A stretch of 59,205 nucleotides of DNA from a virus, in IMG/VR virus record IMGVR_UViG_3300032242_000711, positions 1 to 59,205 of that record; one strand, given 5' to 3'. The position numbers were made by a program, and so were the translations under genes. The notes below the pieces were generated by a model. That model worked only from the letters and a program-made list of their open reading frames with translations, was not told where the DNA came from and did not search any database. Below are positions 10,543 to 49,406 of this stretch, in pieces (the stretch's first letter is position 1; the number at the start of each line of letters is the position of its first letter).

Positions 10543-13079
10543 TACTCACCTTTCGTCGGTTGTTTGGGTTGTTGCTGACGCATCTGGATGCGCTCCTGCA
10601 TATGACGCAACTGCTCCTCATGGCTCTTGTTTGACAACTGCGTGAGCACGTCAACACCCAAGTCCATGTACTGCCGCTGCTTGTCGTTCTGCATTTGCGC
10701 GATGTTTTTAACTGCATCCACCTTGATGCGTTTGTCATCGGTGGCTTGCTGCGCTTGGATGCGCTCGCGCTCGATCTGCTGCTGTGCTTGCTTAAGCTGA
10801 ATATCAGCCGCATCTTTCTGAGCCTTGCGTTGCTGGTCAGCTTGCTTGATCTGAAGCTCTTGCATCTGCATCTGCACCAGCGGGTCTTGTGCTTGCTTCT
10901 GTGCTTGCTGTTGAGCGGCTTCTTGCTGATTCTTCTGGACCAACCGCTGCGCTGCTTGCGCCAGCATAGGAGCCAACCGCGCCTCGACCTCGGGGTCCAT
11001 ATGCTCATCATCGCCATACTCATCTTTCTGAGGTGGCAGAGGCATACCCAACTCCTGCTCGATCTGACGGCGATACTCAAAGCCCAAGTGCTCGTTAATG
11101 TGAGCCATCATTGTGGACTGCAACTGCTGCGCCATCGGGTTGTTCTGGAGCAGCGACTGAATCTTGGGGTCTTGCATCGCAGACATGTGCACAACAATGT
11201 GTGACTGGTGGTCTTGAGTTAAGAACGCTTTGACAGGTTTGCCCGACAGCACGTTCTGGTTCTCCGTCACAGGGTCGGTTGGCCGCATGTCTTGGTCCAT
11301 CGGCACAAGTTTTTCGACGTCCTTAACACCCAACACCTCCAGCATCTGTCGATTGAGCAAGGGCAAGTTGTAGAGTTGTGGTGACTGCTGGGCCAACTGC
11401 ATCACAGCCTGATACTGCACGATCTTCTGCGCCATTGTTGAGGCGTTTGGATCGCTGACCGGGATGACATCCACGTCGTCATAGTCACTGCGCTTAGCTC
11501 TAGCCGAACCCTCGACTGGCTCGTAGTCGTAATCTTCTGGGGTGTACGCAGCGATGATCTCTTTGAGCAGACCCAACTCCTGCTTCATGCTGTAGTGCAC
11601 ACGGGCTTGGATAGCCGACATGTTTTTCAGCGTGCGCTCAAGGATAGCCAGCGTAGTGCCCACAGGTGCGTTCGCACTCATGTCACTCACATCCAAGTCG
11701 GTGGAGTTAGCGGCGCGGCGACCCTCGTCCACAATCTGGCCCAAGAGAGCCATCAAAGTCTGACTTGGCTCTTTATATGGCAGAGGCAACAAGTTATCGC
11801 GCAGTGCACCACTTGGCACGTCCACATCACGCCACTCGCCGGGAGAGATCGGTGTATCGTCACCCTTTACACGCAAGCCACGAGTTTTAAAGCCGCCGGG
11901 CAAGTTAGATAGCGTACCTGCATCCACCAACTGACGGATCAATGAAGTGCTGGACTTGGCAAATGCGCCGATCAGGTGGATCAGACCGAAATAATAAAAG
12001 CCAAAGCCGGGCACGTAGCCGTAGTGCACAAAGTGCTGGCGCTTCTGGTACGTCTCATCATCAGGTTCCCAGTTGCGGCGGATCGCCAAAACTTTGCCGG
12101 ACCCTTTCTCAAGCGTCACCACGTATGGCAGTGCGATACCGGTCGGGTTGCCATCCTCATCTTTGTGCTCGTAGCCAGCAAGATCAATGTCCACGTGCAT
12201 CTCAAGAATCTTATAGCGGTCATCACTTGTGGCTCTGAAGCCCAACTTCTCCGCAATCTTCTTCTCAACTTCATCCAACATGTTGTTGGGCGTGCCCAAG
12301 TCAATGTCCCGGTAAAACCCAGCTACTTGCAGCTTGGTCAAATCGTTCTCGGTCTTGCGCATCACGTGAGTCACACGCTCGGCAGACTCCAAGTTACTCG
12401 CGCCGTAGGGCACAACGATGTCTTCTGCGGGGACAAAGAGCGAAACCTGACGGTCAAGGTTAGGGTCAAAGTAGACTTTCTTGAACGCATTACCCGACAG
12501 ACCCAAGCCCCACAGCATGCGCTCGTGCTCGGGGCGGTACTCTTTCATCTCAATGGTCAGCTTGTAGTTCATGTCGTCTGCGACACGCACGGCTGATGCC
12601 TTCTTGGCTGGAGTCTCTCTACCCTTGATTTTTGTCTTCACAGGACCAGCGGCGGGGAATGTAGCCATCATGGTCTCAGACTGGAACTTGACCAGCGCCT
12701 CAGACAGCATCGGGTGGTACACACCGCAAGCACCTTCCCAAGGCTCGGCCCGCTCCTCAATCTTCATGCCCAGCAACTCAAGGCCGTCCACATAAGTTTG
12801 CATCCAGTCTTTGCGGCTGCTCACGTCGTCGCCATAGTCAGACAGCAAGTTACTAGACAGGGACTCTAATACCGACTCTGATACATCTTCTGCAAGGTTG
12901 GCGTTGAAGTCATCTTCCGACTCCCCGTCAGGCTTGATCTCAATCTCCATCCCATCCATACCGATGCGCACGGCCTCGGGGTCTTCGATCTCAATCTCAA
13001 TGTCAGGCTCAGTATCCGCCTGCGCCATCAAATCTTCAATCCCTTGGGGGGCCGCATACAGTGACTTTTCAATTGCCAT
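10542..13079 (-). CDS. Portal protein (P22-like, podoviral)
   Basis: At 845 residues this is long, as expected for P22-type portals. The N-terminus is very acidic (EPDIEIEIEDPEAVRIG). The core has WMQTYVDGLELLGMKIEERAEPWEG-type sequence, GLGLSGNAFKKVYFDP, and FVPAEDIVVPYGASNLESA. The last 150 residues are a Gln-rich coiled coil (QQQAQKQAQDPLVQMQMQEL), corresponding to a portal barrel. It forms the dodecameric DNA channel to which terminase docks. A GAGGTGA site precedes the ATG; large terminase is directly upstream. Confidence 0.87.
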   Translation of the reverse strand: MAIEKSLYAAPQGIEDLMAQADTEPDIEIEIEDPEAVRIGMDGMEIEIKPDGESEDDFNANLAEDVSESVLESLSSNLLSDYGDDVSSRKDWMQTYVDGLELLGMKIEERAEPWEGACGVYHPMLSEALVKFQSETMMATFPAAGPVKTKIKGRETPAKKASAVRVADDMNYKLTIEMKEYRPEHERMLWGLGLSGNAFKKVYFDPNLDRQVSLFVPAEDIVVPYGASNLESAERVTHVMRKTENDLTKLQVAGFYRDIDLGTPNNMLDEVEKKIAEKLGFRATSDDRYKILEMHVDIDLAGYEHKDEDGNPTGIALPYVVTLEKGSGKVLAIRRNWEPDDETYQKRQHFVHYGYVPGFGFYYFGLIHLIGAFAKSSTSLIRQLVDAGTLSNLPGGFKTRGLRVKGDDTPISPGEWRDVDVPSGALRDNLLPLPYKEPSQTLMALLGQIVDEGRRAANSTDLDVSDMSANAPVGTTLAILERTLKNMSAIQARVHYSMKQELGLLKEIIAAYTPEDYDYEPVEGSARAKRSDYDDVDVIPVSDPNASTMAQKIVQYQAVMQLAQQSPQLYNLPLLNRQMLEVLGVKDVEKLVPMDQDMRPTDPVTENQNVLSGKPVKAFLTQDHQSHIVVHMSAMQDPKIQSLLQNNPMAQQLQSTMMAHINEHLGFEYRRQIEQELGMPLPPQKDEYGDDEHMDPEVEARLAPMLAQAAQRLVQKNQQEAAQQQAQKQAQDPLVQMQMQELQIKQADQQRKAQKDAADIQLKQAQQQIERERIQAQQATDDKRIKVDAVKNIAQMQNDKQRQYMDLGVDVLTQLSNKSHEEQLRHMQERIQMRQQQPKQPTKGE

Positions 13080-13087
13080 AATTCACC

Positions 13088-14599
13088 TCAGTAGTATTCC
13101 CGCTTGCGTCGAAACTCGCGGGGGTCGTCTTGTTCATCGGAGTCTAATTGAATGAAGCCACCGCGCCGGTAGCGCAGTAGTGCCTGACTCATCGAGTCCA
13201 CCATGTCGTCATGCTCGCCTGACGGGAAGCTGGCTACTTCTTCTACCAGTTCTTCCGCCCAGTGCGTATTAGGCACCCATACTCGCCCAGATGCAAATAG
13301 GTCAGCCACGGCATTCAACCGTGCTATTTTGTCATTACCTTTGCTTGGTGTGAACTCTTGCACGGGGATACCCATGGCCCGAAGCTCAAAAATAAGTGGG
13401 CTTCCCGCCGCTTTGGCTTCCACAATGCACGAATCTGGTTCCCATTCTTTGTACTCTTCGTAGGCCCGGGCCTTGAGTTCTGGGAACTCCATGCGCTTTT
13501 TGAACGCATTGAGCAAGATAATATTGGACTGCGGCCTGCCCGTGTCATCATCCTTGTGAAACACACCCCATGTTGTGCACGCGCTGTAGTCGGCCCGCTC
13601 TGACTTAAGAAACGCCGTATCCCATGACTGGATCACAAAGTCGCAGTATGGTGGGCTGTCATCTTCCCAAGTCTTCCACCACTCCCGCTTGATGATCGCA
13701 CTGACATCGGACGTGGGCTGCTGCATGTACTGCGCCATCCACTTACCCGAAGGCAATTCATTGCGCAGGGACTCCAATTCTTTAATTGACCAGAACCCGG
13801 GCCACAGTGGCCTGCCCGAAGGCAAGATGGCTGGAAACTCAATCACGCGCCACTCATCTCCGTCACGCTGGGCAGCAGCTTTGAGCGCTTGGCCGGTCAA
13901 GTCCTTCTTAGACCAGCGCGTCATCACAATCACAATAGCTCCGCCCGGCTGGAGACGCTGACGCGGACCTGACGTATACCACTCATACGTCTTGTCGTAA
14001 ATCTCGGGGTTGGTTTCCGCTATGGTTGCTTCTTGTTCCGAGTGAGGGTCGTCAATAATGAGGATGTCCGCGCCTTTACCCGTAACCGCACCACCCACAC
14101 CAATCGCAAAATAGTCTCCACCATAGTTAGTCGCCCACCGGCCAGCAGCTTTAGAGTCAGACTGTAGTGAGACTTCCGGAAATATGTCTTTATAGCGGTC
14201 AGAATCAACGAGGTTCCTCACTTTCCGGCCAAAACCCACCGCCAATTCGGCAGTGTGGGACGTCTGAATCACCTTTTTGCCCGGGTACATCCCCAAAAAC
14301 CACGCTGGAAGCAAGTAACTGGCAAACTCAGACTTGGTATGCCGTGGCGGCATGTTAATAATGAGCCGTTTGATCTTGCCCTCGGCCACTTGTTGGAAGG
14401 CTTCTGCCATTTTCTCGTGGTGCCAACCATGAATGAAGCTCGGCCAAACGTATTTAACGAAGGCCATGAAGTCATTTGCTACAACTTCTTTAGTTTTGTT
14501 CCTTCGGGCCTCTGCAATCAACGCACCAACCTTTTGTTTGGCGGCATCAGGCAATGTTGGCAGCAGTTTTTCTGCTTGGGCCAGCAATTCAGGACTCAT
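13088..14599 (-). CDS. Terminase large subunit
   Basis: The 503-residue packaging motor has an N-terminal ATPase with a deviant Walker A MPPRHTKS (residues 83-90), Walker B ILIIDDPH (179-186) and coupling motif VIVMTRW. The C-terminal RNase H-like nuclease has IQSWDTAF, CIVEAKAAG and GEHDDMVDSMSQAL acidic motifs. The domain order and length match the psiM2-ORF9-like terminase family. It cuts concatemers and pumps DNA into the prohead through the portal encoded next. The start is preceded by AAGGGG and overlaps the small subunit gene. Confidence 0.95.
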   Translation of the reverse strand: MSPELLAQAEKLLPTLPDAAKQKVGALIAEARRNKTKEVVANDFMAFVKYVWPSFIHGWHHEKMAEAFQQVAEGKIKRLIINMPPRHTKSEFASYLLPAWFLGMYPGKKVIQTSHTAELAVGFGRKVRNLVDSDRYKDIFPEVSLQSDSKAAGRWATNYGGDYFAIGVGGAVTGKGADILIIDDPHSEQEATIAETNPEIYDKTYEWYTSGPRQRLQPGGAIVIVMTRWSKKDLTGQALKAAAQRDGDEWRVIEFPAILPSGRPLWPGFWSIKELESLRNELPSGKWMAQYMQQPTSDVSAIIKREWWKTWEDDSPPYCDFVIQSWDTAFLKSERADYSACTTWGVFHKDDDTGRPQSNIILLNAFKKRMEFPELKARAYEEYKEWEPDSCIVEAKAAGSPLIFELRAMGIPVQEFTPSKGNDKIARLNAVADLFASGRVWVPNTHWAEELVEEVASFPSGEHDDMVDSMSQALLRYRRGGFIQLDSDEQDDPREFRRKREYY

Positions 14600-15185: not shown

Positions 15186-15423
15186 AAGCGTTTGTAGCTC
15201 CTGCTAGATTGAGCGCACTGTAACACAAAAATATATGGGGGTGCAACAGGGGACCCAAAAACATGATGGGGGGTGTTTCTATAGCTACTGTAAACCCTAA
15301 CTGGCTACAAATTCAAAGGGGGTAGGGGGTACTGTAAAGTGCTATGGAAATTTGTAATTTAATGTGCAAATCACTATGTAGGGGACGAGCGGGTCCCATC
15401 AACCACAAAACGGGGGGTGGGGG

Positions 15424-15497
15424 TGTCGATAATCGGCTGGAGAAAATCAATTTATTATCAAGGTTAATAAAATAAAATAATGCTTGTCGATAATCGG
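15424..15497 (+). repeat. Direct repeat TGTCGATAATCGG (two copies), operator candidate
   Basis: TGTCGATAATCGG occurs at 15424-15436 and 15485-15497, start-to-start 61 bases, roughly six helical turns. Each copy contains the palindrome CGAT-A-ATCG. The right copy overlaps the -35 box of the early promoter, so a protein bound to both copies could repress it by looping (inference). Confidence 0.7.
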
Positions 15498-15511
15498 GAT
15501 TATGTTACATT
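15484..15511 (+). promoter_or_regulatory. Sigma-70-like early promoter
   Basis: TTGTCG (15484-15489), a 16-base spacer and TACATT (15506-15511). The spacer holds the perfect inverted repeat ATAATC-GG-GATTAT (15490-15503). Predicted start near 15518 gives a leader of about 50 bases to the first early gene. Confidence 0.65.
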
Positions 15512-15569
15512 AGAACTGTGGTGAATAACTCACTACACATTAACTTAACTAACTGAAAGAGAGAAACCC

Positions 15570-16091
15570 ATGTCAATCAATCAAGCCACTGAATATTCTA
15601 ATGTCGTCACCGCAGTGACTGCCGCAGTTCGCCAAGATATTAACACGGTTAATAAATGGCAAAACGCAGGCGCATCGGTTCGGGCATTTTTTGGAACTGA
15701 AACCGCCATTAACGAGGTGAAAGCCCAATTTATCGCTGATGCTATTATCCCCGCCATGGACAAAAAGCATGCCACTGCATTATTGAAAGAAACCGTTCGC
15801 AAAGGTAGTGCTGAATATAACGCATTGGACTCAGCGGGTCGGGATGCATGGGAAGCCACTAACACGGCCAAAAAAGACGCAAGGGCGGTCGCACATACTA
15901 TGTTTTCACGTGTCGTCAAGTATGCTTTTCCCCGTGAAAAAACTGAGTCAGAAAGCAAGTCATTGGAAACCAAATTGGCTTACCTTATCAATGAAGCAAT
16001 TGGCAAATGCGAGAAAGCCGAGGCCGCATCTTTTGACGTGCTCAAGACAATCGAGCATCTCAAGGCCGCTTTGTCCATCATCACAAAATAA
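15570..16091 (+). CDS. First early gene, helical protein of unknown function
   Basis: The 173-residue, largely helical, mildly basic protein starts MSINQATEYSNVVTAVTA with a GAGAG site upstream. It contains HATALLKETVRKGSAEYNAL and TKLAYLINEAIGKCEKAEA. I do not recognise a family. It has its own promoter (15484) and a terminator twenty bases after its stop, so it forms a single-gene unit at the head of the early region. This position often holds abundant host-takeover or DNA-binding proteins (inference). Confidence 0.82.
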   Translation: MSINQATEYSNVVTAVTAAVRQDINTVNKWQNAGASVRAFFGTETAINEVKAQFIADAIIPAMDKKHATALLKETVRKGSAEYNALDSAGRDAWEATNTAKKDARAVAHTMFSRVVKYAFPREKTESESKSLETKLAYLINEAIGKCEKAEAASFDVLKTIEHLKAALSIITK

Positions 16092-16092
16092 G

Positions 16093-16106
16093 TTAACACG
16101 TGTTAA
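16093..16106. repeat. Palindrome TTAAC-ACGT-GTTAA
   Basis: A perfect 14-base palindrome directly after the stop codon of the first early gene and before its terminator; member of the TTAAC-N3/4-GTTAA family found through the early region. Confidence 0.7.
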
Positions 16107-16110
16107 TCAC

Positions 16111-16134
16111 AGCCCACTTCGGTGGGCTTTTTCT
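16111..16134 (+). terminator. Rho-independent terminator of the first early gene
   Basis: AGCCCAC-TTCG-GTGGGCT followed by TTTTT: a seven-pair stem with UUCG tetraloop and a T run, 20 bases past the stop codon. Confidence 0.9.
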
Positions 16135-16221: not shown

Positions 16222-16543
16222 TGTTCCAGTTGTTCCGCGATGTTCCGGGCACTGGAACAAGCAAAAACGCTTGTAACTTGTTGTTTTATAAAGGTTTTTT
16301 TAATAAATATATTCTGATGTTCCGTTGTTCCACATATATAACATACCTAGCCGTTTCCCTTTTTAGGTTAACAGTGTTAACCAAGGGCTTTGTTCCTTCC
16401 AAAGAGGGTCTCGGAAAGTGCGTTTTTAGGGTGGAACAGCGGAACATCGCGACAACGAAGCGTCTAACATCATGATTTTAAACAACTTTTGCAATTCACC
16501 ACTTTTTGGAACAACAGCAACAAACCCCTGTTTTTCCGGAACA
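16222..16543. repeat. Cluster of 11 TGTTCC/GGAACA hexamers with long inverted repeats (origin or operator candidate)
   Basis: Between 16135 and 16595 I see no convincing gene. TGTTCC occurs at 16222, 16231, 16241, 16318, 16326 and 16391; its complement GGAACA at 16254, 16433, 16441, 16508 and 16538. Left copies face right and right copies face left. Larger inverted repeats include CTTGTTCCAGT / ACTGGAACAAG (16220-16230 / 16251-16261, perfect) and GATGTTCCGTTGTTCCAC / GTGGAACAGCGGAACATC (16316-16333 / 16431-16448, one mismatch). AT-rich DNA (16270-16345) lies between them. The layout suits an iteron-type replication origin or multi-site operator. Confidence 0.75.
16366..16382. repeat. Palindrome GGTTAAC-AGT-GTTAACC
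   Basis: A perfect inverted repeat with seven-base arms inside the hexamer array, and the longest-armed member of the TTAAC/GTTAA family. Confidence 0.7.
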
Positions 16544-16595: not shown

Positions 16596-16808
16596 ATGCC
16601 AAATAACGCCCATCACTTTTGCCGTGAGTGTGGTGACGACATCCCCTCTGCTCGTTGGGCTTTGGGGTTCAAGCACTGCATGGTTTGTGGTCAAGCGCTT
16701 GCCAAGCAGAAAAAGCACACCATCGTGCCCATGCACAAGTCCAACTACATCGTGGTGACCGACCGCACCATCTTGACCGGAATCAACAACAAGCAACAGC
16801 GCAACTAG
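16596..16808 (+). CDS. Small zinc-ribbon protein
   Basis: The ATG at 16596 follows TTGGAG by six bases; the 70-residue product MPNNAHHFCRECGDDIPSAR has C9-x2-C12 and C28-x2-C31 (FCRECG, HCMVCGQ), a four-cysteine zinc site, then a basic tail. Such proteins bind nucleic acid or RNA polymerase; here it is the first gene after the candidate origin/operator array. Function beyond zinc binding is unknown. Confidence 0.72.
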   Translation: MPNNAHHFCRECGDDIPSARWALGFKHCMVCGQALAKQKKHTIVPMHKSNYIVVTDRTILTGINNKQQRN

Positions 16809-16846: not shown

Positions 16847-16860
16847 TTAACAGGAGTTAA
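16847..16860. repeat. Palindrome TTAAC-AGGA-GTTAA over ribosome binding site
   Basis: The Shine-Dalgarno AGGAG sits in the centre of the palindrome and the ATG of the next gene begins exactly three bases after it. Confidence 0.75.
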
Positions 16861-18012: not shown

Positions 18013-18180
18013 ATGAAGAGTTATTTAGTGGAAGTAAAGCGTACAAGCTACATCACTATGACCGTGGAGGCTGGCGATAAGGACGAGGCCGAAGCAAAAG
18101 CGTGGCATGAAATTGAGTATGGTCGTGCCGACATCAACGATGCCCATTGGGAACTTGAATCAATTGAGGAGCAATCATGA
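18013..18180 (+). CDS. Small beta-alpha-beta protein (DpnD/PcfM-like shape)
   Basis: MKSYLVEVKRTSYITMTVEA then GDKDEAEAKAWHEIEYGRAD and HWELESIEEQS: 55 residues with the strand-strand-helix-strand pattern and 'EAEAKAW' helix that recalls the small DpnD/PcfM family. The match is by pattern only. The start is set by the palindromic RBS and the stop overlaps the next ATG. Confidence 0.6.
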   Translation: MKSYLVEVKRTSYITMTVEAGDKDEAEAKAWHEIEYGRADINDAHWELESIEEQS

Positions 18181-19106
18181 AACATTCAGCAACCCGTAGC
18201 TACGAGTTCTACAAAGCCAAGTGGGACAACACCAAACCTATTCGTGGTCGTGCCGAGGACGTGCGGCCTATAGGTAACCGCAAGCGTACTCATGAACTGG
18301 TTACGCAAAAGAAGTTGCTCAGTGGTGAGGTAAGTTACTGCGCCGTGATGCATGGCACTGAGGTTGTGGAGTACCACAACAATGGCGACATCACCCTGCG
18401 AACTGGTGGTTGGGCCACGCCATTGACCGCTGAGTATATGTACACGCACAGTCCGTTCGGTGCATGGAAGCAAGCCGGTAAGATTTGGGTGAAGGTTCCG
18501 CACGCTGGCTCGGTGCATCCAGACAGCAAGCTATTTGTGGACAAGGAACACAAGTTCATACCCATCGACCGAGAGTTGACCCTGCGGTATGTGGGTGACG
18601 AGTGCTATGAGGTTGTCGGCAAGAAGACCATAACCAAAGAAGTTGTGGATCGTGCGAAGGCCAAGGAGGCCCGCCAATGTGTGCAACCGTTCTTAACATG
18701 GGCCAAGGCGTTCTTGAAAATGTCCGATGGTTGGATCATGCATGAGACACGCAGGGAGTTGCTTACCTTTACGCAAGGCGATGGGTGGCCGCACTTTGAG
18801 TACAAATACCTCAAGTATGAGGACGTGTGCGATGCGGACCCTGAGAACTACGCATGGATCATGTGCCAAGTATTGAGGTGCGATGACTCGGTTCCTCACA
18901 TAGAGCAAAAAATTGCGGCCACGTACGAGTACCACTACACGATGGACAACAAAATAGTTCACACACATTCGCGTAGCTTCTACGACAGGCAGTATGACTT
19001 CAACCAATTAGTAACACGTGTTTATAAATTGGTTGCGTTGGGTGCCGACATACACAGGTACATAGAAGTTGAACCAACCAGCAAGATTGTGTGGAACGCC
19101 GTTTGA
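18177..19106 (+). CDS. Conserved early protein of unknown function (309 aa)
   Basis: The 309-residue soluble protein starts MKHSATRSYEFYKAKWDNTK. Notable segments are HNNGDITLRTGGWATPLTAE, PHAGSVHPDSKLFVDKEHKF and RRELLTFTQGDGWPHFEYK. It appears to be alpha/beta with many aromatic residues. I have no family assignment. It is the last gene before the promoter driving the MoxR/VWA genes, and its start is coupled to the preceding stop by ATGA. Confidence 0.75.
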   Translation: MKHSATRSYEFYKAKWDNTKPIRGRAEDVRPIGNRKRTHELVTQKKLLSGEVSYCAVMHGTEVVEYHNNGDITLRTGGWATPLTAEYMYTHSPFGAWKQAGKIWVKVPHAGSVHPDSKLFVDKEHKFIPIDRELTLRYVGDECYEVVGKKTITKEVVDRAKAKEARQCVQPFLTWAKAFLKMSDGWIMHETRRELLTFTQGDGWPHFEYKYLKYEDVCDADPENYAWIMCQVLRCDDSVPHIEQKIAATYEYHYTMDNKIVHTHSRSFYDRQYDFNQLVTRVYKLVALGADIHRYIEVEPTSKIVWNAV

Positions 19107-19255: not shown

Positions 19256-20329
19256 ATGTCAGTTATCAACTTTGGCCAGTCAGTGGCCTTGAATGAGTTT
19301 GCCCAAGCCATCAGCGTTGTGGGTAAGAAAGTAACAGTTATCGGCCAAGGCGAGCCGGGCATCGGCAAGTCAGCGATGCTTAAACAAATTAAGGCGCAAA
19401 ACCCCGAGTACGAGACAGCGTACATCGACTGCACCTTGCTTGATCTGGGTGACTTTGCGTTGCCCTACACGGTCGAGGCTGGCGGTATGCGTGTTACTAA
19501 GTTTGCACCGAACGCTCGGTTCAAGATGCATGGAGACAAGCCGGTCATCATCATGCTTGACGAGATCGGCAAGGCAATGAAGGCCGTGAAGAATGTGCTG
19601 TTGACTCTCATGCTGGAACATCGCATCGGTGATGACTACTTGCCCGAGGGTTCGATTGTGTTCGGCACGACTAACTTGTTGTCAGATGGTGTCGGGGATA
19701 TGCTCGAGGCCCATGCTCGCAATCGTGTGGCCTTGGTCACTGTGCGCAAGCCTGACCATGATGAGTGGATCGAGTGGGCAATCAACAACAACGTTGCGCC
19801 CGAGATCATTGCATGGGTCAAGCAGTTCCCTCATGCACTGGCAAGCTACACCGACCCAAGTCAGAAAGAGAATCCCTACATCTTCAACCCAACTCGTGCG
19901 GGGATGGGCGCGGTGGTTACACCAAGAAGTTTAGAGAAAGCTAGCGACATAGCAAAACAAAGGGATACGCTTGGTGATGCGTTGACCATTAGCTTGTTGA
20001 CAGGAACCATCGGTGAGAGTGCGGCCCGTGATATGCAAGCGTTCTTTACGGTGGTCGATAAGTTGCCCACGTGGGATGCGATCCTTGCATCGCCAACGAC
20101 AGCGAAGATGCCAACCGATGCGGTCGCAAGATGCATCTTGGTGTTCAGTGCTATCGCTCGGATCGAGAAGGACACGCTGTCCAAGTGGATGCAATACGTC
20201 CAGCGTATGGACAAAGAGTGGCAGGCGCTGTTTGCAACGAGTGTGATGAAGTCACCAAACAAGCAAGCGTTCTGTGTGATGAACAAAGAGTTCAAGGAAT
20301 GGGCACTGACCAACCAGTGGTTGTTCTGA
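19256..20329 (+). CDS. MoxR/CobS-type AAA+ ATPase
   Basis: The 357-residue protein carries Walker A GEPGIGKS (32-39), Walker B IIMLDEIGK (98-106), a sensor-1-like VFGTTNLLSDG, and the arginine region EAHARNRVALVTVRKP. Composition and length fit MoxR-family AAA+ proteins, which work with VWA-domain partners to remodel or load metal into targets (RavA-ViaA, NorQ-NorD, CobS-CobT). The VWA protein is encoded 17 bases downstream. It has a strong private promoter with an operator, so it is probably produced early and regulated. The phage substrate is unknown. Confidence 0.87.
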   Translation: MSVINFGQSVALNEFAQAISVVGKKVTVIGQGEPGIGKSAMLKQIKAQNPEYETAYIDCTLLDLGDFALPYTVEAGGMRVTKFAPNARFKMHGDKPVIIMLDEIGKAMKAVKNVLLTLMLEHRIGDDYLPEGSIVFGTTNLLSDGVGDMLEAHARNRVALVTVRKPDHDEWIEWAINNNVAPEIIAWVKQFPHALASYTDPSQKENPYIFNPTRAGMGAVVTPRSLEKASDIAKQRDTLGDALTISLLTGTIGESAARDMQAFFTVVDKLPTWDAILASPTTAKMPTDAVARCILVFSAIARIEKDTLSKWMQYVQRMDKEWQALFATSVMKSPNKQAFCVMNKEFKEWALTNQWLF

Positions 20330-20343
20330 TTAACAGGAGTTAA
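20330..20343. repeat. Palindrome TTAAC-AGGA-GTTAA over ribosome binding site
   Basis: Third exact copy, beginning at the MoxR stop codon and ending three bases before the VWA gene's ATG. Confidence 0.75.
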
Positions 20344-20346
20344 TAA

Positions 20347-21549
20347 ATGGCTAGCAAATTAACAGTCGAGCAACGTATCCAGAAGGATCACGTGTGGCTC
20401 ATGAAGAACCCGAAGTATTGCCTGTATTCAGGCATCTTGATGATCGGTAAGACCGAGGTCAAGGACGATGTGCAGACAGCTTGCACCAACGGACGCGATA
20501 CCTTTTATGGTCGGGCGTTCAGCGACAAGCTATCGGACAAGGAACGCAGAGGCATGATCTTGCATGAGAATTTGCACAAGGCGTTCAGGCACACAACCAT
20601 GTGGAAACATCTCTACAAGGACTGGCCGCAAGTGGCAAACATGGCGTGTGATTATGTTATCAACCTGTTAATAAATGACAGCGATACAGGTCATGTCGAT
20701 GTCAAGCTACCTGATGGTGGGTTGCTTGATGAGAAGTTCCGTGGGCTTGATGCCGGTGAGGTATTCCGCAGACTTAAAAAGGAAGCGGAGGACAACGGGT
20801 CTATCAACGTGAAGACTATTGATAACCCCGAGGGTCGAGACGTGCCGGTCGAGGAGGGCGGTGGGTTTGACGATCATGATTGGGAGAGCGCAGAAGGGAT
20901 GACCAACGAAGAGCGCGAGACACTTGCACGTGACGTGGACCAAGCGTTGCGCCAAGGTGCGATTCTAGCTGGAAAGATGTCTGCCAATGTGCCCCGAGAG
21001 ATTGAAGAGCTTACCGAAGCCAAGGTGGATTGGCGTGAAGCCATGCGTGAGTTCGTGACATCGTTTTGTCAGGACAAGGACGAGAGCACATGGCGGCGGC
21101 CATCCCGTAGGTGGATCGGACAAGATGTTTATATGCCTAGCTTGATCGGTGAGTCCGTCGGTCGCATCGTGTTGGGTATTGATATGTCAGGCTCGATTGG
21201 CCGTGAGGAGATCAGCGAGTTCTTATCCGAGGTCAAGAAGATTTGCGAGACTGTGCGGCCCGAGGGTATCGACTTGTTGTATTGGGACACAGACGTGTGT
21301 CAGCATGAGAAGTATGAACAAGACCAACTGGACAACTTGTTGTCAACAACCAAGCCCCGAGGCGGTGGTGGGACTGACCCGCAATGCATCGTGGACTACG
21401 TGATCGACAAGAAGATCAAGGCCGAGTGTGCGGTCATCTTGACCGATGGCTACGTGAGTTCGTGGGGTCAAGGTTGGCCATGCCCTACGTTGTGGGGTAT
21501 CACAACCGATATGGTCAGCGGCATTGGTAAGACGGTGCACATTGGCTAA
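20347..21549 (+). CDS. VWA-like protein with HExxH peptidase-like domain (DUF2201-like)
   Basis: The 400-residue protein has an N-terminal metallopeptidase-like helix with HENLHKAFRH (H73, E74, H77), an acidic linker (about 150-190), and a C-terminal von Willebrand A-like domain with the MIDAS pattern DMSGS (from D279), a GGGGTDP loop and ILTDGYVSSWG. This matches the DUF2201 / VWA-like arrangement seen beside MoxR ATPases. It is probably the partner or adaptor of the upstream ATPase, binding metal and protein targets. Whether the HExxH site is active cannot be seen from sequence. Confidence 0.83.
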   Translation: MASKLTVEQRIQKDHVWLMKNPKYCLYSGILMIGKTEVKDDVQTACTNGRDTFYGRAFSDKLSDKERRGMILHENLHKAFRHTTMWKHLYKDWPQVANMACDYVINLLINDSDTGHVDVKLPDGGLLDEKFRGLDAGEVFRRLKKEAEDNGSINVKTIDNPEGRDVPVEEGGGFDDHDWESAEGMTNEERETLARDVDQALRQGAILAGKMSANVPREIEELTEAKVDWREAMREFVTSFCQDKDESTWRRPSRRWIGQDVYMPSLIGESVGRIVLGIDMSGSIGREEISEFLSEVKKICETVRPEGIDLLYWDTDVCQHEKYEQDQLDNLLSTTKPRGGGGTDPQCIVDYVIDKKIKAECAVILTDGYVSSWGQGWPCPTLWGITTDMVSGIGKTVHIG

Positions 21550-21763
21550 CGAGAAGTATGGCTACGGCTGGTCTGATTTCCGTGGCATGTATGACAACGT
21601 GTCGGACTTTTTTGTTTACCGCAAGGTAGCGCAAGATGTCCAACCGTGGTACAGACTGAAGCGGATGCGCAAGTACCGCATCATGTGGGGCACTAGGGTG
21701 ATCGGGTCCGACCTAACGAGCGACGAGGCTGATGCCTTGTTGAAGATTCTGCAAACAGATTAA
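21542..21763 (+). CDS. Small protein with DEAxxLLKIL tail
   Basis: Start uncertain: I use TTG 21542 (reads (M)ANEKYGYGWSDFRGMYD), overlapping the VWA stop; ATG 21587 is an alternative. The C-terminus SDLTSDEADALLKILQTD resembles VMTKDEAIAMAKLLNA in the next gene, so the two may be divergent paralogues. Both sit between the VWA and DUF3150-like genes. Confidence 0.55.
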   Translation: MANEKYGYGWSDFRGMYDNVSDFFVYRKVAQDVQPWYRLKRMRKYRIMWGTRVIGSDLTSDEADALLKILQTD

Positions 21764-21773
21764 CAGGTGTTAA
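21760..21773. repeat. Palindrome TTAAC-AGGT-GTTAA over ribosome binding site
   Basis: Variant copy with a weaker Shine-Dalgarno (AGGTG), again exactly three bases before an ATG. Confidence 0.7.
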
Positions 21774-21776
21774 CAA

Positions 21777-22013
21777 ATGCGCAAGCAATGGTTTGACAGC
21801 CGAGCTGACGATGGTCAGTATTTCACAATCGTTATGAGAGAAGAAAGGAGATACAACATCAACATGTGGGCAACTGAAATCCGTATATGGTACGAGCCGA
21901 TCAGCTTTGCAAGTGCGAAGCACAAGAGCAAAGCCATGTACGGAGTGATGACAAAAGACGAAGCCATAGCTATGGCTAAATTACTTAACGCAACAGTAGG
22001 AGAGAGCAAATGA
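21777..22013 (+). CDS. Small protein related to its upstream neighbour
   Basis: A 78-residue protein, MRKQWFDSRADDGQYFTIVM, with alternating strands (INMWATEIRIWYEP) and the helix TKDEAIAMAKLLNATVG at the end. The palindromic ribosome binding site fixes the start and the stop overlaps the next ATG. Unknown function. Confidence 0.65.
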   Translation: MRKQWFDSRADDGQYFTIVMREERRYNINMWATEIRIWYEPISFASAKHKSKAMYGVMTKDEAIAMAKLLNATVGESK

Positions 22014-22879
22014 TTCAGAACAGTGCAATGTTGGTTGACTTGAACATCAGCGTATGGACAGGTCGCAAGATGGACAAGAAAGTATCCGATGAGATCGGAG
22101 TGAGCAAGAACGCCAAGGGGCGGGTGGGCAACTATCATAAAAGTTTGCTCGGGCATGAGGGGCGGCTGGCTGATTTGCAAAAGCTGGTGTCGGCCATTCG
22201 CATTTGGCATTACGAGCAAACGTTGCCGTGGTCGGATGGTGGTTCACGCTTACTGCCAATGAAAAACTTCTTTGACTACAAGGCTACGTTGGCTAACTAC
22301 CAAACGCAGTTTGAAGAAGCCGTGGAATCGTTCTTGAAAGAGTACCCCATTCTGGTAAGTGCGGCGGCATTTCAGTTGGGTGATTTGTTTGACAGTGAGG
22401 AATACCCCGAAGCCCACAAGCTCGAAAGCAAGTTCAAGTTCAAGTACGTGTTCTTGCCTGTGCCCGAGGTGGGCGACTTCCGCATCGACGTAAGCGAAGC
22501 AGGAAAGGCTGAACTGAAAGAACAGTACGAGAAGTTTTACAGTGACAAGCTAGGCGAAGCCATGCAAGACGCATGGGACAGGTTGCATGAGTGCGTGGCG
22601 CGTATGAGTGACAAGCTGGCTAACACCCCGACACCCCGAGTGGGCAAGGACGGTGAAGAAAAGCACGTGCAGATTTTCCGTGACTCACTTGTCAACAATG
22701 CTGTGGACTTGTGCGAGTTGCTGACCAAGCTGAACGTGACCAACGACCCCAAGCTGGAGCAAGCACGCAAGAAGTTGGAGAGCGCGGTCAGTGGTGTGAG
22801 TGCCAAGGAGTTGCGTGAGAATGATTACTTGCGGCTTGGTGTCAAGGCCGAGGTCGATAAGATTCTGTCGATGTTCTGA
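22010..22879 (+). CDS. DUF3150-like protein
   Basis: The 289-residue protein opens MIQNSAMLVDLNISVWTGRK and continues with HYEQTLPWSDGGSRLLPMKN and FEEAVESFLKEYPILV. This N-terminal 'LNIS.WT.RK.D' plus 'YEQTLPW...G.RLLP' signature matches what I recall of DUF3150. It is mostly helical, has no catalytic motif I can see and ends near VKAEVDKILSMF. Its co-location with MoxR and VWA genes suggests a substrate or adaptor of that machine (inference). Confidence 0.72.
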   Translation: MIQNSAMLVDLNISVWTGRKMDKKVSDEIGVSKNAKGRVGNYHKSLLGHEGRLADLQKLVSAIRIWHYEQTLPWSDGGSRLLPMKNFFDYKATLANYQTQFEEAVESFLKEYPILVSAAAFQLGDLFDSEEYPEAHKLESKFKFKYVFLPVPEVGDFRIDVSEAGKAELKEQYEKFYSDKLGEAMQDAWDRLHECVARMSDKLANTPTPRVGKDGEEKHVQIFRDSLVNNAVDLCELLTKLNVTNDPKLEQARKKLESAVSGVSAKELRENDYLRLGVKAEVDKILSMF

Positions 22880-36474: not shown

Positions 36475-36502
36475 ATAACAAATGACGGCGCAGAGGACGG
36501 CT

Positions 36503-39352
36503 ATGGTTTCAAGAAATGAGTTCCTCTCATTGGTGCTACCGCCACTTCAAGATGGCGAGCATTATTGCAGTTGGGGCAATAAAAAAGAAAATGGAGAAGA
36601 CGTAGTTCGACAGCGGTTTGCAACCAATATCGAAGACCTAAGTGATAAATCAGATGCACTGCAAGCAGACGGGTTTAACGCTTTTTACGGCATGGCCAAG
36701 TTTGGGCCTATTTCTAACGGACGGTTTGCGACCAACGCAATCGCGCTCAAGTCGTTTTTTATTGACTTGGATTGCGGTGAGGGTAAACCCTATGACACAT
36801 TAGATGCAGGGCTTGTTGCCCTCAAAGAATTTTGCAAGGCAACCAAGTTGCCCAAGCCAAGCATTTTGCAGTCTGGGCGCGGTGCACACGTGTACTGGAT
36901 TCTTGAAGAGCCGATGGCTAAGACCGATTGGAAGCCACATGCTGAGCAACTCAAGCTGTTGTGTGAGCAAAACAAGTTTGACATTGATCGCGCTGTACCG
37001 GCTGACGCGGCGCGTGTGTTGCGGATGCCAGAAACGAATCACCTGAAAGACCCAACCAATCCGATTCCGGTTGTGGTGTTGCACATGGCCCCGCTGATTC
37101 CCAACGCCAGAATGAAGGAACTGCTGGAGCCAGTACAAGACGTTTTGTCTGCGCTAGACCGAGCCGAATTTAAACGCCCACTGGACGCAGTGACTTTGGC
37201 CCTGATGGGCGCAAGCGAGTCCAAGTTTAAGACGATCTTGGTCAAGTCGGTTGAGGGCACAGGATGTAACCAGATTGCGCATATCTACCGCAACCAAGAA
37301 ACAATTGACGAGCCGCTGTGGAGGGCTGGCCTGTCGATTGCCCAACATTGTTCTGACCGCCACAAGGCTATCCACGTGCTGTCTAATCAGCACCCCGAAT
37401 ACAACGCCAACACAACTGAGAAGAAGGCCAACGAAACCAAAGGCCCGTACACGTGTGAGACATTCAAAAAGCTCAATCCTTCAGGTTGCGAAGGGTGCGC
37501 ACACAAATTTACTTCTCCGATCCAATTGGGTCGTGAGATCATTGAAGCGACTGAAGAAGACAACATCATCACCGACCTTGAGCCTGAAACAAAAGAGGCC
37601 AAGACTTACGTCATCCCCAAGTTCCCATTCCCATTTTTCCGTGGCAAGAACGGCGGTGTGTTTGTGCACACCAAGGACAAGGATGGCAACGACATTGACG
37701 ACATCATTTATCCATACGACTTCTATGTGGTTAAGCGGATGCAAGACCCCGACTTAGGGGAGACCTTGCTGCTCCGTTTGCACTTGCCAAAAGATGGTGT
37801 CAGAGACTTCATCATGCCTTTGGCCGGGGTTTTGTCCAAAGAAAAATTTGTGGCAACGATTGCCTCCCACGGTATTACCGCGCTTGGCAAGAAACAGGAC
37901 ACGCTGATGCAATACGTAGCGAAATGGGTTGAGGATTTACAGATGCGAGCAAACGCTGAAAAAGCGCACAAACAGTTTGGCTGGATTGAGGATGAGTCTG
38001 GCATCATCATTGGCGACCGAGAAATCAGAGCTACGGATGTTGTGTACAGCCCACCGTCTTCTCCGACACTTCCGCACGTGCCGTTGTTCCAACCCAAGGG
38101 CGACTTCCACGTATGGAAAGACACCATCAACATCTATGGCGGTGAGGGTATGGAGTACCGTGCCTTTGCTTTCTTTTTGGGATTTGGCACGATGCTGATG
38201 AAGTTCACGGCGCTTGACGGGTTCTTACTCAACTTGGTCAGCCGCGAATCAGGTTCAGGCAAAACGACCATCTTGCATGCTATCAACAGCATTTACGGCA
38301 GACCCAAGGAATTATTGCTGTCACCCAAAGACACATACAACTCCCGCATGAACCGCCTTGGCGTGATGCAAAGCATGGCTGTGACAATGGACGAGATCAC
38401 AAACATGCCGCCTGACCAAATGTCAAACCAAGTTTATGACGTGACTTCGGGTCGGGGTAAGAACCGCATGAAGCAGCACGACAATGCGGAACGCCTTAAC
38501 AACACCAAGTTTCAGACTGGGCTTATCACGTCATCCAATCGGTACGTTACCGATGCGTTGCTTTCCATCAAGGGCTTTCCCGATGGCGAACTGAAACGGA
38601 TTATGGAGATCAACGTTAAACCAGATGCCCGAGATGATGCTACGTGGGCACGGCAACACTTTGGTAGGTTGATGAACAACTACGGCCATGCTATTGAGCC
38701 GTTCTCTCAAGCGCTGGTTGGCCAACTGCCTATGGTCAAAGCCAAACTTGCAGAAGTGCAACTGCGCATCGAACAGGCCGCAGGCATCAAGAACGCTGAA
38801 CGGTACTGGGCGCTTATCAGTTCGTTGGCAATTGCTGGTGGGTCAATCTCTAAGCATCTTGGGTTGCATGACATACCGGTCAAGCCCGTGTTTGATTACG
38901 CAGTAAACCTTATCAAGGAGACTCGTACCCGCACACATGAATACATGTTTGATACTGATGAGTTTGTGGGTGGCTTTTTGCAGAAGCACTTCCATGAGAT
39001 TCTTGTTATCAACGGCAGTAAGGATATGCGCAACGGACTTGAGCATGCCCCCATCCGTGAGCCACGTGGCGCATTGACTGCGCGTTATGAGCCTGACACA
39101 AAGATGCTCTATATTGTGACCCGCACGTTTCGAGAAGATTGCGCAAAGATCATGGCTAACTACGAAGAGGTGATTGCCCCGCACCGCAAGAGTGGTGCAT
39201 TGGTGGACACCAAGAAAAAACGCATGACCGCTGGCACTGTTGCCAACACGCAAGCTCCCGTGAACGCGCTGTGGTTTGACACAACCAAGCTGGACTTCTT
39301 TAACGCAACCGCTTTGTTAGATGCAGATACTGGGACTGCCGATTCTGATTGA
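36503..39352 (+). CDS. Primase-helicase (AEP-type primase with DUF927-like helicase)
   Basis: I prefer ATG 36503 (GAGG six bases upstream); ATG 36482 would add seven residues. The N-terminal part has FFIDLDCG and SGRGAHVYWILEE, the catalytic Asp pair and 'GRG.HVYW' motif of archaeo-eukaryotic-type primases, then a cysteine cluster (CETFKKLNPSGCEGCAHK). The C-terminal half has Walker A ESGSGKTT (about residue 580), MAVTMDEITNMP and TSGRGKNRM, as in DUF927-type helicases. It would prime and unwind DNA at the fork for the family A polymerase. Confidence 0.87.
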   Translation: MVSRNEFLSLVLPPLQDGEHYCSWGNKKENGEDVVRQRFATNIEDLSDKSDALQADGFNAFYGMAKFGPISNGRFATNAIALKSFFIDLDCGEGKPYDTLDAGLVALKEFCKATKLPKPSILQSGRGAHVYWILEEPMAKTDWKPHAEQLKLLCEQNKFDIDRAVPADAARVLRMPETNHLKDPTNPIPVVVLHMAPLIPNARMKELLEPVQDVLSALDRAEFKRPLDAVTLALMGASESKFKTILVKSVEGTGCNQIAHIYRNQETIDEPLWRAGLSIAQHCSDRHKAIHVLSNQHPEYNANTTEKKANETKGPYTCETFKKLNPSGCEGCAHKFTSPIQLGREIIEATEEDNIITDLEPETKEAKTYVIPKFPFPFFRGKNGGVFVHTKDKDGNDIDDIIYPYDFYVVKRMQDPDLGETLLLRLHLPKDGVRDFIMPLAGVLSKEKFVATIASHGITALGKKQDTLMQYVAKWVEDLQMRANAEKAHKQFGWIEDESGIIIGDREIRATDVVYSPPSSPTLPHVPLFQPKGDFHVWKDTINIYGGEGMEYRAFAFFLGFGTMLMKFTALDGFLLNLVSRESGSGKTTILHAINSIYGRPKELLLSPKDTYNSRMNRLGVMQSMAVTMDEITNMPPDQMSNQVYDVTSGRGKNRMKQHDNAERLNNTKFQTGLITSSNRYVTDALLSIKGFPDGELKRIMEINVKPDARDDATWARQHFGRLMNNYGHAIEPFSQALVGQLPMVKAKLAEVQLRIEQAAGIKNAERYWALISSLAIAGGSISKHLGLHDIPVKPVFDYAVNLIKETRTRTHEYMFDTDEFVGGFLQKHFHEILVINGSKDMRNGLEHAPIREPRGALTARYEPDTKMLYIVTRTFREDCAKIMANYEEVIAPHRKSGALVDTKKKRMTAGTVANTQAPVNALWFDTTKLDFFNATALLDADTGTADSD

Positions 39353-47516: not shown

Positions 47517-49406
47517 TTAACCTCTTGTTGCGTTGTACAGACCCAAGGTATCTAAACCGCTTACTCGCGTAGTTTTAAAGTCTTTGGGCAGGCCACCAGA
47601 CGCGCCTTTGGCCAGTTGACTTAGACCATACCCAGCAGTGCCCAGACCCGCCAGTTGCGATGATAACGCTGGCGCTGCCTGATACGTTGTAGAAGTTTGA
47701 CCCGGAATAGCATACCCACGCAAAATCGCGTTGTACGCGTTGTATTGTTGCAGCGGATAATTCTGCGCTTGTGCGTAGTTGTTGATGGCGTTGTTGATGA
47801 TGTCTTGTTGAGCTTGTTGCTGCTGTGCGCCAACTTGGTTCTGCAACCCGATGATGCCTGTCTGAGCAGCCAACTGCTGCTGGCCCAGATTACCCAGATT
47901 ACTGGCGGCTGTATTACCCAGCCCATAACCCGACTGCGCAGCGCCCACACCCTGAAGACCCACGCCAGCACCTTGCATACCTTGCGCTGTGCCCTGAAGA
48001 CCTAAACCTGCACCTTGCAGTGCATACTGACCCGCATTGGTAGCTTGACCAACACCTTGCAGACCAACCCCAGCACCTTGCATACCCTGCGCCGTACCAG
48101 CCAACTGAGTATTGACAGCTTGCAAGCCTGTGTTGACGCCTTGCAAGCCTTGTGCTTGTCCGGCCAATTGAGTGTTGACACCTTGCACGCCCGCATTTAC
48201 ACCTTGCAATCCAGTTCCATAAAACTGATTGGCAGCATTAAGCCCACTGATGCCAGCCTGTTGCCCTTGCATGGCTGTACCGATGCCAGACAAACCCAGT
48301 TGACCGCCTTGCAGTGCGGTACCCAGACCTTGCTGAGCGCCTTGCAAACCTTGCAGATTAAGGTTTGAGCCATACTGCATATTTTGTATGGCGTTGTTGT
48401 ATGCAGTATTCAAGCCTGTGGCTTGGTTGGTGTTCATCAAAGACTGCAAAGCGCGATTGGCTTCTGCGTTTTCAATGGCCTGACGAGAGCCACCAAAGGC
48501 TCCAGCTTTAGCTGCGTTCGCACCGCGCTGGGTGCTTGCAATATCCGCTTGTCGTTGAGCCGCTTGGTTTTGGACGTCAATTACATTTTGAGCATACGGG
48601 TTCATATACTGCTGAACCGCATACGGATTGGTAATTTGGTTGGCGTAATTTGCCCCAGCGTTTGCGGCTTGCGCAGCGTAGTTTTGCGCTTGATTACCTA
48701 CATTTTGGCCATAGTATTGGGCATTCAAACCCATTTGACCAATGTCCGCAGCATTTTGCCCATACATTTGAGCAGCGGGAGCCAAACCAGCTGCTTGCTG
48801 GCCATAATACGCGGCTTGGTTAACTAGATTGCCGCCTTGATCTTCTCCAATTTGGCGACCCCTGCTTCCATAAAACAAGGCTTGATCTTTTAAATTCTGT
48901 CCTTGGCTTACAGCAAGGTTTTGTCCTGTAAGTCCAGATTGCTGGCCTTGGCCACCATAGCCGTATGCAGCATTTTGCAATGCGTTGGCATCTTGTGCGG
49001 ACTGTTGGGCGGCGTATTGGCCTTGAGCCAGACCCTGCATACCAGCGTTGTAACCCGCAGTACCGAACCCATAAGCCTGATCCGCAGACTGCATGCCACC
49101 TACACCTGCTGCGCCAGCAAGTTGGGACGCTTGGCCATACTGGCCGGGCACTTGTAAGTTAGCGGCGTTGACTTGAGCTTGTGTTTGAAGAGGGCTGAAA
49201 CCCGCTACATAATCTGCTGGATTGGCACTGTAAGGAACAAAAGGGGCAACCCCATTGATGTCAAACTGGCCTGTTTCTGCGTTGGGCTTGACATTAAAAA
49301 TTTGCTGCGTAGCACCGCCGATCAAACTTGTAACCTGTGGCTTGAGCCATTCAGGAATGTTTGACGTTACGGTTGTTGATTGTGTTGGGCCGCCTCCACC
49401 GCTCAT
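47517..49406 (-). CDS. Repeat-rich internal virion/tail protein
   Basis: The 629-residue protein is dominated by Gln, Gly, Ala and Asn. Residues about 390-490 are degenerate repeats such as AQGMQGAGVGLQGVG (twice), GLQGVNTQLAG and GVQGVNTQLAG; earlier parts repeat YGQQAA / YGQNA units. C-terminal GLPKDFKTTRVSGLDTLGLY is non-repetitive. Such low-complexity proteins occur in podoviral cores and may be flexible fibres through the tail during DNA ejection. The start overlaps the GNAT gene's stop. Confidence 0.7.
   Translation of the reverse strand: MSGGGGPTQSTTVTSNIPEWLKPQVTSLIGGATQQIFNVKPNAETGQFDINGVAPFVPYSANPADYVAGFSPLQTQAQVNAANLQVPGQYGQASQLAGAAGVGGMQSADQAYGFGTAGYNAGMQGLAQGQYAAQQSAQDANALQNAAYGYGGQGQQSGLTGQNLAVSQGQNLKDQALFYGSRGRQIGEDQGGNLVNQAAYYGQQAAGLAPAAQMYGQNAADIGQMGLNAQYYGQNVGNQAQNYAAQAANAGANYANQITNPYAVQQYMNPYAQNVIDVQNQAAQRQADIASTQRGANAAKAGAFGGSRQAIENAEANRALQSLMNTNQATGLNTAYNNAIQNMQYGSNLNLQGLQGAQQGLGTALQGGQLGLSGIGTAMQGQQAGISGLNAANQFYGTGLQGVNAGVQGVNTQLAGQAQGLQGVNTGLQAVNTQLAGTAQGMQGAGVGLQGVGQATNAGQYALQGAGLGLQGTAQGMQGAGVGLQGVGAAQSGYGLGNTAASNLGNLGQQQLAAQTGIIGLQNQVGAQQQQAQQDIINNAINNYAQAQNYPLQQYNAYNAILRGYAIPGQTSTTYQAAPALSSQLAGLGTAGYGLSQLAKGASGGLPKDFKTTRVSGLDTLGLYNATRG
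47941..48225. repeat. Degenerate tandem repeats within the 629-aa gene
   Basis: On the plus strand units such as CCAGCACCTTGCATACC(T/C)TGC (47968, 48070) and GCCTTGCAAGCCT alternate at roughly 100-base and smaller intervals, encoding GLQGVN/AQGMQGAG repeats. They are prone to slippage and assembly collapse. Confidence 0.65.

Follow-up and report, generated by a model that had tools for sequence, protein, structure and literature searches.

The window that we analysed spans an entire IMG/VR record (complete, 59,205 bases), and comparison of the large terminase shows that this phage is kin to HTVC023P, DSL-LC04, and Pag-Yong1. Between the end of a gene at 16091 and the ATG of a zinc-finger gene at 16596 lies an array of short repeats (16222-16543; Table 1). 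Open reading frames that overlap this stretch look spurious. Terminase genes lie 1-3 kb from the array in this family of phages, and the direction of transcription changes over at the array. The gene on the left (15570-16091) encodes a fast-diverging protein of 173 amino acids with no family match; its high-confidence structural model is all-helical, and its cognates have 170-260 amino acids. We rejected this protein as the binder of the repeats because it is helical and lacks a DNA-binding fold. We also rejected the zinc-finger protein, which was not found beside the array in some of the relatives that carry one. Further to the right (19256-22879), the window encodes a MoxR-like AAA ATPase, a DUF2201 metallopeptidase/VWA-like protein, and a DUF3150 protein, and this trio is conserved beside the array in most relatives.

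An earlier note had pointed to 11 copies of TGTTCC/GGAACA in this gene-free stretch, far above chance expectation, and this held up: the density of the hexamer is 65 times that in the remainder of the window, and 300 first-order Markov resamples gave at most 4 copies. None of the other hexamers in the window reaches 11 copies in 322 bases. The suggested count over the whole genome gave 42 copies, as compared to 35 expected, which is ordinary; the signal is therefore the clustering. As the note had also claimed, the left copies generally point rightward and the right copies leftward, with exceptions at 16254 and 16391. The inverted repeats that it described around the core are real (a perfect 11-nt pair, 16220-16230/16251-16261, and an 18-nt pair with one mismatch, 16316-16333/16431-16448), but the 11-nt pair lies inside the left outer block and does not flank the core. 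There is also a perfect 12-nt inverted pair (16236-16247/16440-16451).

Table 1. Features of the array, of the proposed initiator gene, and of repeat clusters in three relatives. Positions are in the window unless another genome is named.
Feature	Position	Strand	Remarks
Intrinsic terminator	~16112-16134		After the gene ending at 16091, before the array
Outer left iteron triplet	16222-16246	+	TGTTCC at 16222, 16231, and 16241, 9-10 bp apart; also in relatives
Lone inverted iteron	16254-16259	-	GGAACA at 16254; closes the left outer block
IHF-like site AAACAACAAGTTA	16274-16286	-	8 of 9 consensus positions; perfect at this place in many relatives
Further AT-rich run	16284-16317		
Inner left iteron pair	16318-16331	+	TGTTCC N2 TGTTCC, 8-bp repeat; copies at 16318 and 16326
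AT-rich stretch, candidate unwinding element	16332-16345	.	Alignment with relatives (ATATATA in most close ones)
Central palindrome GGTTAACAGTGTTAACC	16366-16382	.	Near the array centre; TTtACAatGTtAA-type dyads there in relatives
Extra core TGTTCC	16391-16396	+	Retained only in some relatives
Inner right iteron pair	16433-16446	-	GGAACA N2 GGAACA, 8-bp repeat; copies at 16433 and 16441
IHF-like site AATCATGATGTTA	16465-16477	-	8 of 9 consensus positions
Outer right block	16508-16543	-	GGAACA at 16508 and 16538; at least 3 copies in many relatives
Primase-helicase, proposed initiator	36482-39352	+	956 amino acids; DUF927 helicase domain (Pfam PF06048, E = 2.6e-21)
Predicted C-terminal winged-helix domain	38897-39349	+	Residues 806-956; AlphaFold2 pLDDT 77
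TAGGAA repeat cluster	HTVC023P (L093), 11468-11790		
TGGCACA repeat cluster	023Pt_psg01 (L091), 13575-13790		
GTCATAC repeat cluster	Pag-Yong1 (L094), 18106-18470		

We gathered relatives by a terminase-based search and found the array at the same place. Its geometry is nearly constant across dozens of relatives, while the flanks have diverged and the adjoining sequence is poorly alignable in places. This conservation of position supports the note's reading, which was that the array is either an origin of the iteron type or an operator bound cooperatively. In the alignment, a triplet with copies 9-10 bp apart is followed by one inverted copy, a spacer, the 8-bp pair (with ATATATA directly after it in most aligned relatives), and a core with a central dyad; the mirrored pair lies about 100 bp further on, and the mirrored outer block is about 66 bp beyond that. 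When we searched viral contigs by geometry only, we found the array in at least 119 contigs. Of 116 that were examined, 99 have one or more of the family's marker genes nearby and 17 have none.

The motif itself turns over. Relatives without TGTTCC carry TGTTTC, TGTTCAC (in L048, L053, and L059), TATTCT, or AAAGTTC at the same place. Most simply, TGTTCC would be the ancestral motif.

In each arm, an IHF-like site lies between the outer and inner blocks. Across 89 loci, 66 left arms have a sequence that matches 8 or 9 of the 9 IHF consensus positions (versus 47 of 445 shuffled left arms), as do 53 of the 89 right arms. These matches suggest that the array is probably folded by IHF.

Phages that are not related to the window have the array immediately 3' of VapE, Prim-Pol, or D5-type genes (contigs L131, L149, L186, L192, L108, L129, L120, L471, and L448). 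When we scanned 84,980 genomes of bacteria and archaea for the geometry alone, there were 21 matches, and in 12 of these a large gene or open frame ends 82-300 bp before the array, which is thus on its 3' side. All 10 of the large genes that were tested encode primase or helicase domains (VapE, D5, Prim-Pol, or DUF927), mostly as fused primase-helicases, and one array-adjacent DUF927 protein, from Thermosyntropha, has the helix-turn-helix domain of Cch. (Some matches to the pattern, in DNA that is unrelated or may be coding, were excluded from the argument.) Nothing argues more strongly for the array as the cis site of primase-helicases than this adjacency in independent elements. Because the same motif is found in genomes from several bacterial phyla, we disfavour the hypothesis that it is the site of one host regulator.

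The window encodes a primase-helicase of the D5/VapE/DUF927 type, as do SaPIs, PICIs, and P4, and homologues are encoded by most array-bearing family contigs of over 41 kb. By sequence, its helicase matches a pathogenicity-island protein (8tch). The best Foldseek match of its C-terminal domain is Cch (5dgk), which is a weak match (E = 0.07); a profile comparison of this domain with P4 alpha found no similarity. Its gene is not directly upstream of the array, as it is in the unrelated elements; instead, it is 20 kb away, while the terminase genes are just 1 kb away.

When genomes are compared, there is no protein whose overall identity follows the motif class, because the trees of TerL, TerS, and the primase-helicase are congruent and TGTTCC looks ancestral; the motif class fits the tree of TerS no less well than that of the primase. 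At the level of single residues, the primase-helicase has 117 conserved columns, four of which are missing from all of the TATTCT phages. Just one residue, R914 (codon 39221-39223, at the start of the predicted wing), is invariant in all 24 phages whose motif keeps the G and lost in all 11 TATTCT phages. In the alignments, phages with TGTTCC or TGTTCAC have KKR(M/L)xxG(T/W), whereas those with TATTCT have KK(S/A/C)(L/M)S(K/R)GS. Genomes G055 (AGTTCC/AGTTAC-type repeats) and G066 (TGTTCC/AGAACA) retain the G at position 2 of the motif, as their wing arginine predicts. This covariation points to the primase-helicase as the binder, but it is suggestive and not proof, because it represents essentially one evolutionary transition.

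Known systems offer close parallels. The annotated type-1 repeats of the satellite phage P4 ori are TGTTCACC, whose core is the TGTTCAC class of our arrays (the window itself has TGTTCC). As in the array, the short iterons of P4 run in both orientations as a triplet, an inverted copy, and a pair, and the crr repeats of P4 lie 3' of the alpha gene, much as arrays lie 3' of primase-helicase genes in the elements unrelated to the window. P4 alpha binds the ori repeats via a C-terminal winged helix (PMC4234260). In contrast to the mirrored array with its IHF-like sites, P4 has a single-sided ori and a separate crr, the triplet and the inverted copy have the opposite polarity relative to each other, and alpha is a Toprim/D5-type protein, whereas the window has a DUF927 protein. 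The SaPI and PICI systems are like the window in having two iteron sets around an AT-rich region and a DUF927 helicase with a C-terminal winged helix (predicted in the window). SaPI Rep uses its C-terminal domain to recognise iterons that lie downstream of the rep gene. Cch of SCCmec, a DUF927 helicase, is a relative of SaPIbov1 Rep, and the repeats that Cch2 binds follow the gene for Cch2 itself (PMC7581432). The origins of E. coli PICIs always have two iteron sets around an AT-rich region (PMC6092414). In these elements the origin is directly downstream of rep; the window's array also differs from theirs by its two IHF-like sites and by its mirror layout with fixed 8-bp inner pairs. What is new in the window's array is that it is mirrored, has IHF-like sites in both arms, and lies far from the proposed initiator gene.

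Because unrelated elements have the array beside primase-helicase genes, one motif class is identical to the core of the P4 ori repeat, and the wing covaries with the motif, the array is very probably the phage's origin of DNA replication, of the iteron type and probably bound by the phage's own primase-helicase, as in P4, SaPIs, and PICIs. As the earlier note had expected of an origin, the cumulative GC skew turns here (with a minimum at about 15-16 kb), but this is uninformative, since the genes change direction at the same spot, and we dropped it as evidence. In the mechanism that we propose, the predicted winged helix of the primase-helicase would bind the TGTTCC iterons, and host IHF would bend the DNA at one site per arm so that the outer and inner iteron blocks meet. 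Two opposed primase-helicase assemblies would form, one on each half of the array. These could open the AT-rich core and then load and prime two divergent forks, so that replication would be bidirectional.

Alternatively, the array might be a packaging initiation site (pac or cos) that is bound by the small terminase and IHF. P1 pac has hexanucleotide blocks on both sides as well as IHF, and lambda cosB has R sites and IHF. The window resembles P1 pac in having hexamer blocks on both sides, and it has IHF-like sequences between its repeat blocks; P1 pac itself is cut by PacA/PacB. An IHF-like site is not specific to packaging sites, since IHF also acts at origins. Those relatives that have other primases carry repeat clusters of their own near the genes for the terminase small subunit (HTVC023P, 023Pt_psg01, and Pag-Yong1), and residue N103 of TerS also covaries with the motif class (20 of 21), both of which would fit packaging. 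Many phages keep the primase, the array, and the terminase close together, so the neighbourhood by itself does not distinguish an origin from a packaging site. However, the nearly identical repeat in P4 belongs to a replication origin, and in unrelated elements the array adjoins primase-helicase genes. Also, the ends of relatives' contigs cluster 600-950 bp before TerL, just 5' of terS (22 of 80), and not at the array, although this evidence is indirect. We consider packaging unlikely and retain it because the terminase genes are so close.

It is more improbable still that the array is a cooperative operator or enhancer through which a regulator of the phage or its host controls the divergent operons. 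The array does lie between the terminase operon and the rightward block of genes, and in some relatives it is followed by strong promoter-like sequences. But its two halves cover more than 300 bp in a mirrored layout, the nearest gene on the left is terminated before the array, and elements from different bacterial phyla have the motif beside primase-helicase genes. It is hardly credible that the array is a centromere-like site, or another kind of site, that is read by the fast-evolving array-adjacent protein: a gene of this size that is aimed at the array does precede it in most loci of the family, but the model of the protein matches no DNA-binding fold, the protein is unrecognisable in some members of the family that have the same motif, and it is not seen beside the array in unrelated elements.

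More tentatively, and with less than even confidence, we suggest that the origin reading might extend to a widespread type of replicon: a mirrored, IHF-folded origin with face-to-face loading, whose specificity is set by an R914-to-G code and re-set by few changes. If so, the fixed geometry of the array would identify origins without a protein search, the code that links a wing residue to a base (R914 to the G of the motif) would predict which origin a helicase uses, and origin specificity would have been re-set in evolution by a few changes in both partners. Replication origins are known for only a minority of environmental phages, and the array provides a searchable signature, which picks out candidate origins both in phages that have not been cultured and in prophages from several bacterial phyla and ties them to one class of initiator. 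The natural swaps of motif (TGTTCC, TGTTCAC, TGTTTC, TATTCT, and AGTTCC) are material for studying how helicases read DNA and change their specificity.

We also noticed other repeated elements. The intergenic stretch 5' of terS (15186-15569 in the window) contains C-rich elements (CACCCCCACCCCCC and GGGACCC), and it is here that the 22 terminase-bearing contigs end; the homologous places are in L004, L009, L013-L015, L020, L021, L023, L024, and others. This stretch may be a packaging site or a mere spot where assemblies break. Phage-specific dyads recur close to genes and arrays. In the window they are TTAACAnnTGTTAA, at 16095-16106, at the central palindrome of the array (16366-16382), and at 16849-16860; in relatives they are TTCATATCATATGAAG, TTTCATACGGTATGAAA, or AATACTGTCTGACAGTATT (L045, L054, L065, and L074; L048, L053, and L557). 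All of these are possibly operators. Finally, the window has a second dense cluster of repeats, with 10-11 copies of CCTTGCA (47970-48370); this cluster lies inside a long gene on the minus strand (47517-49406) and probably represents a coding repeat.
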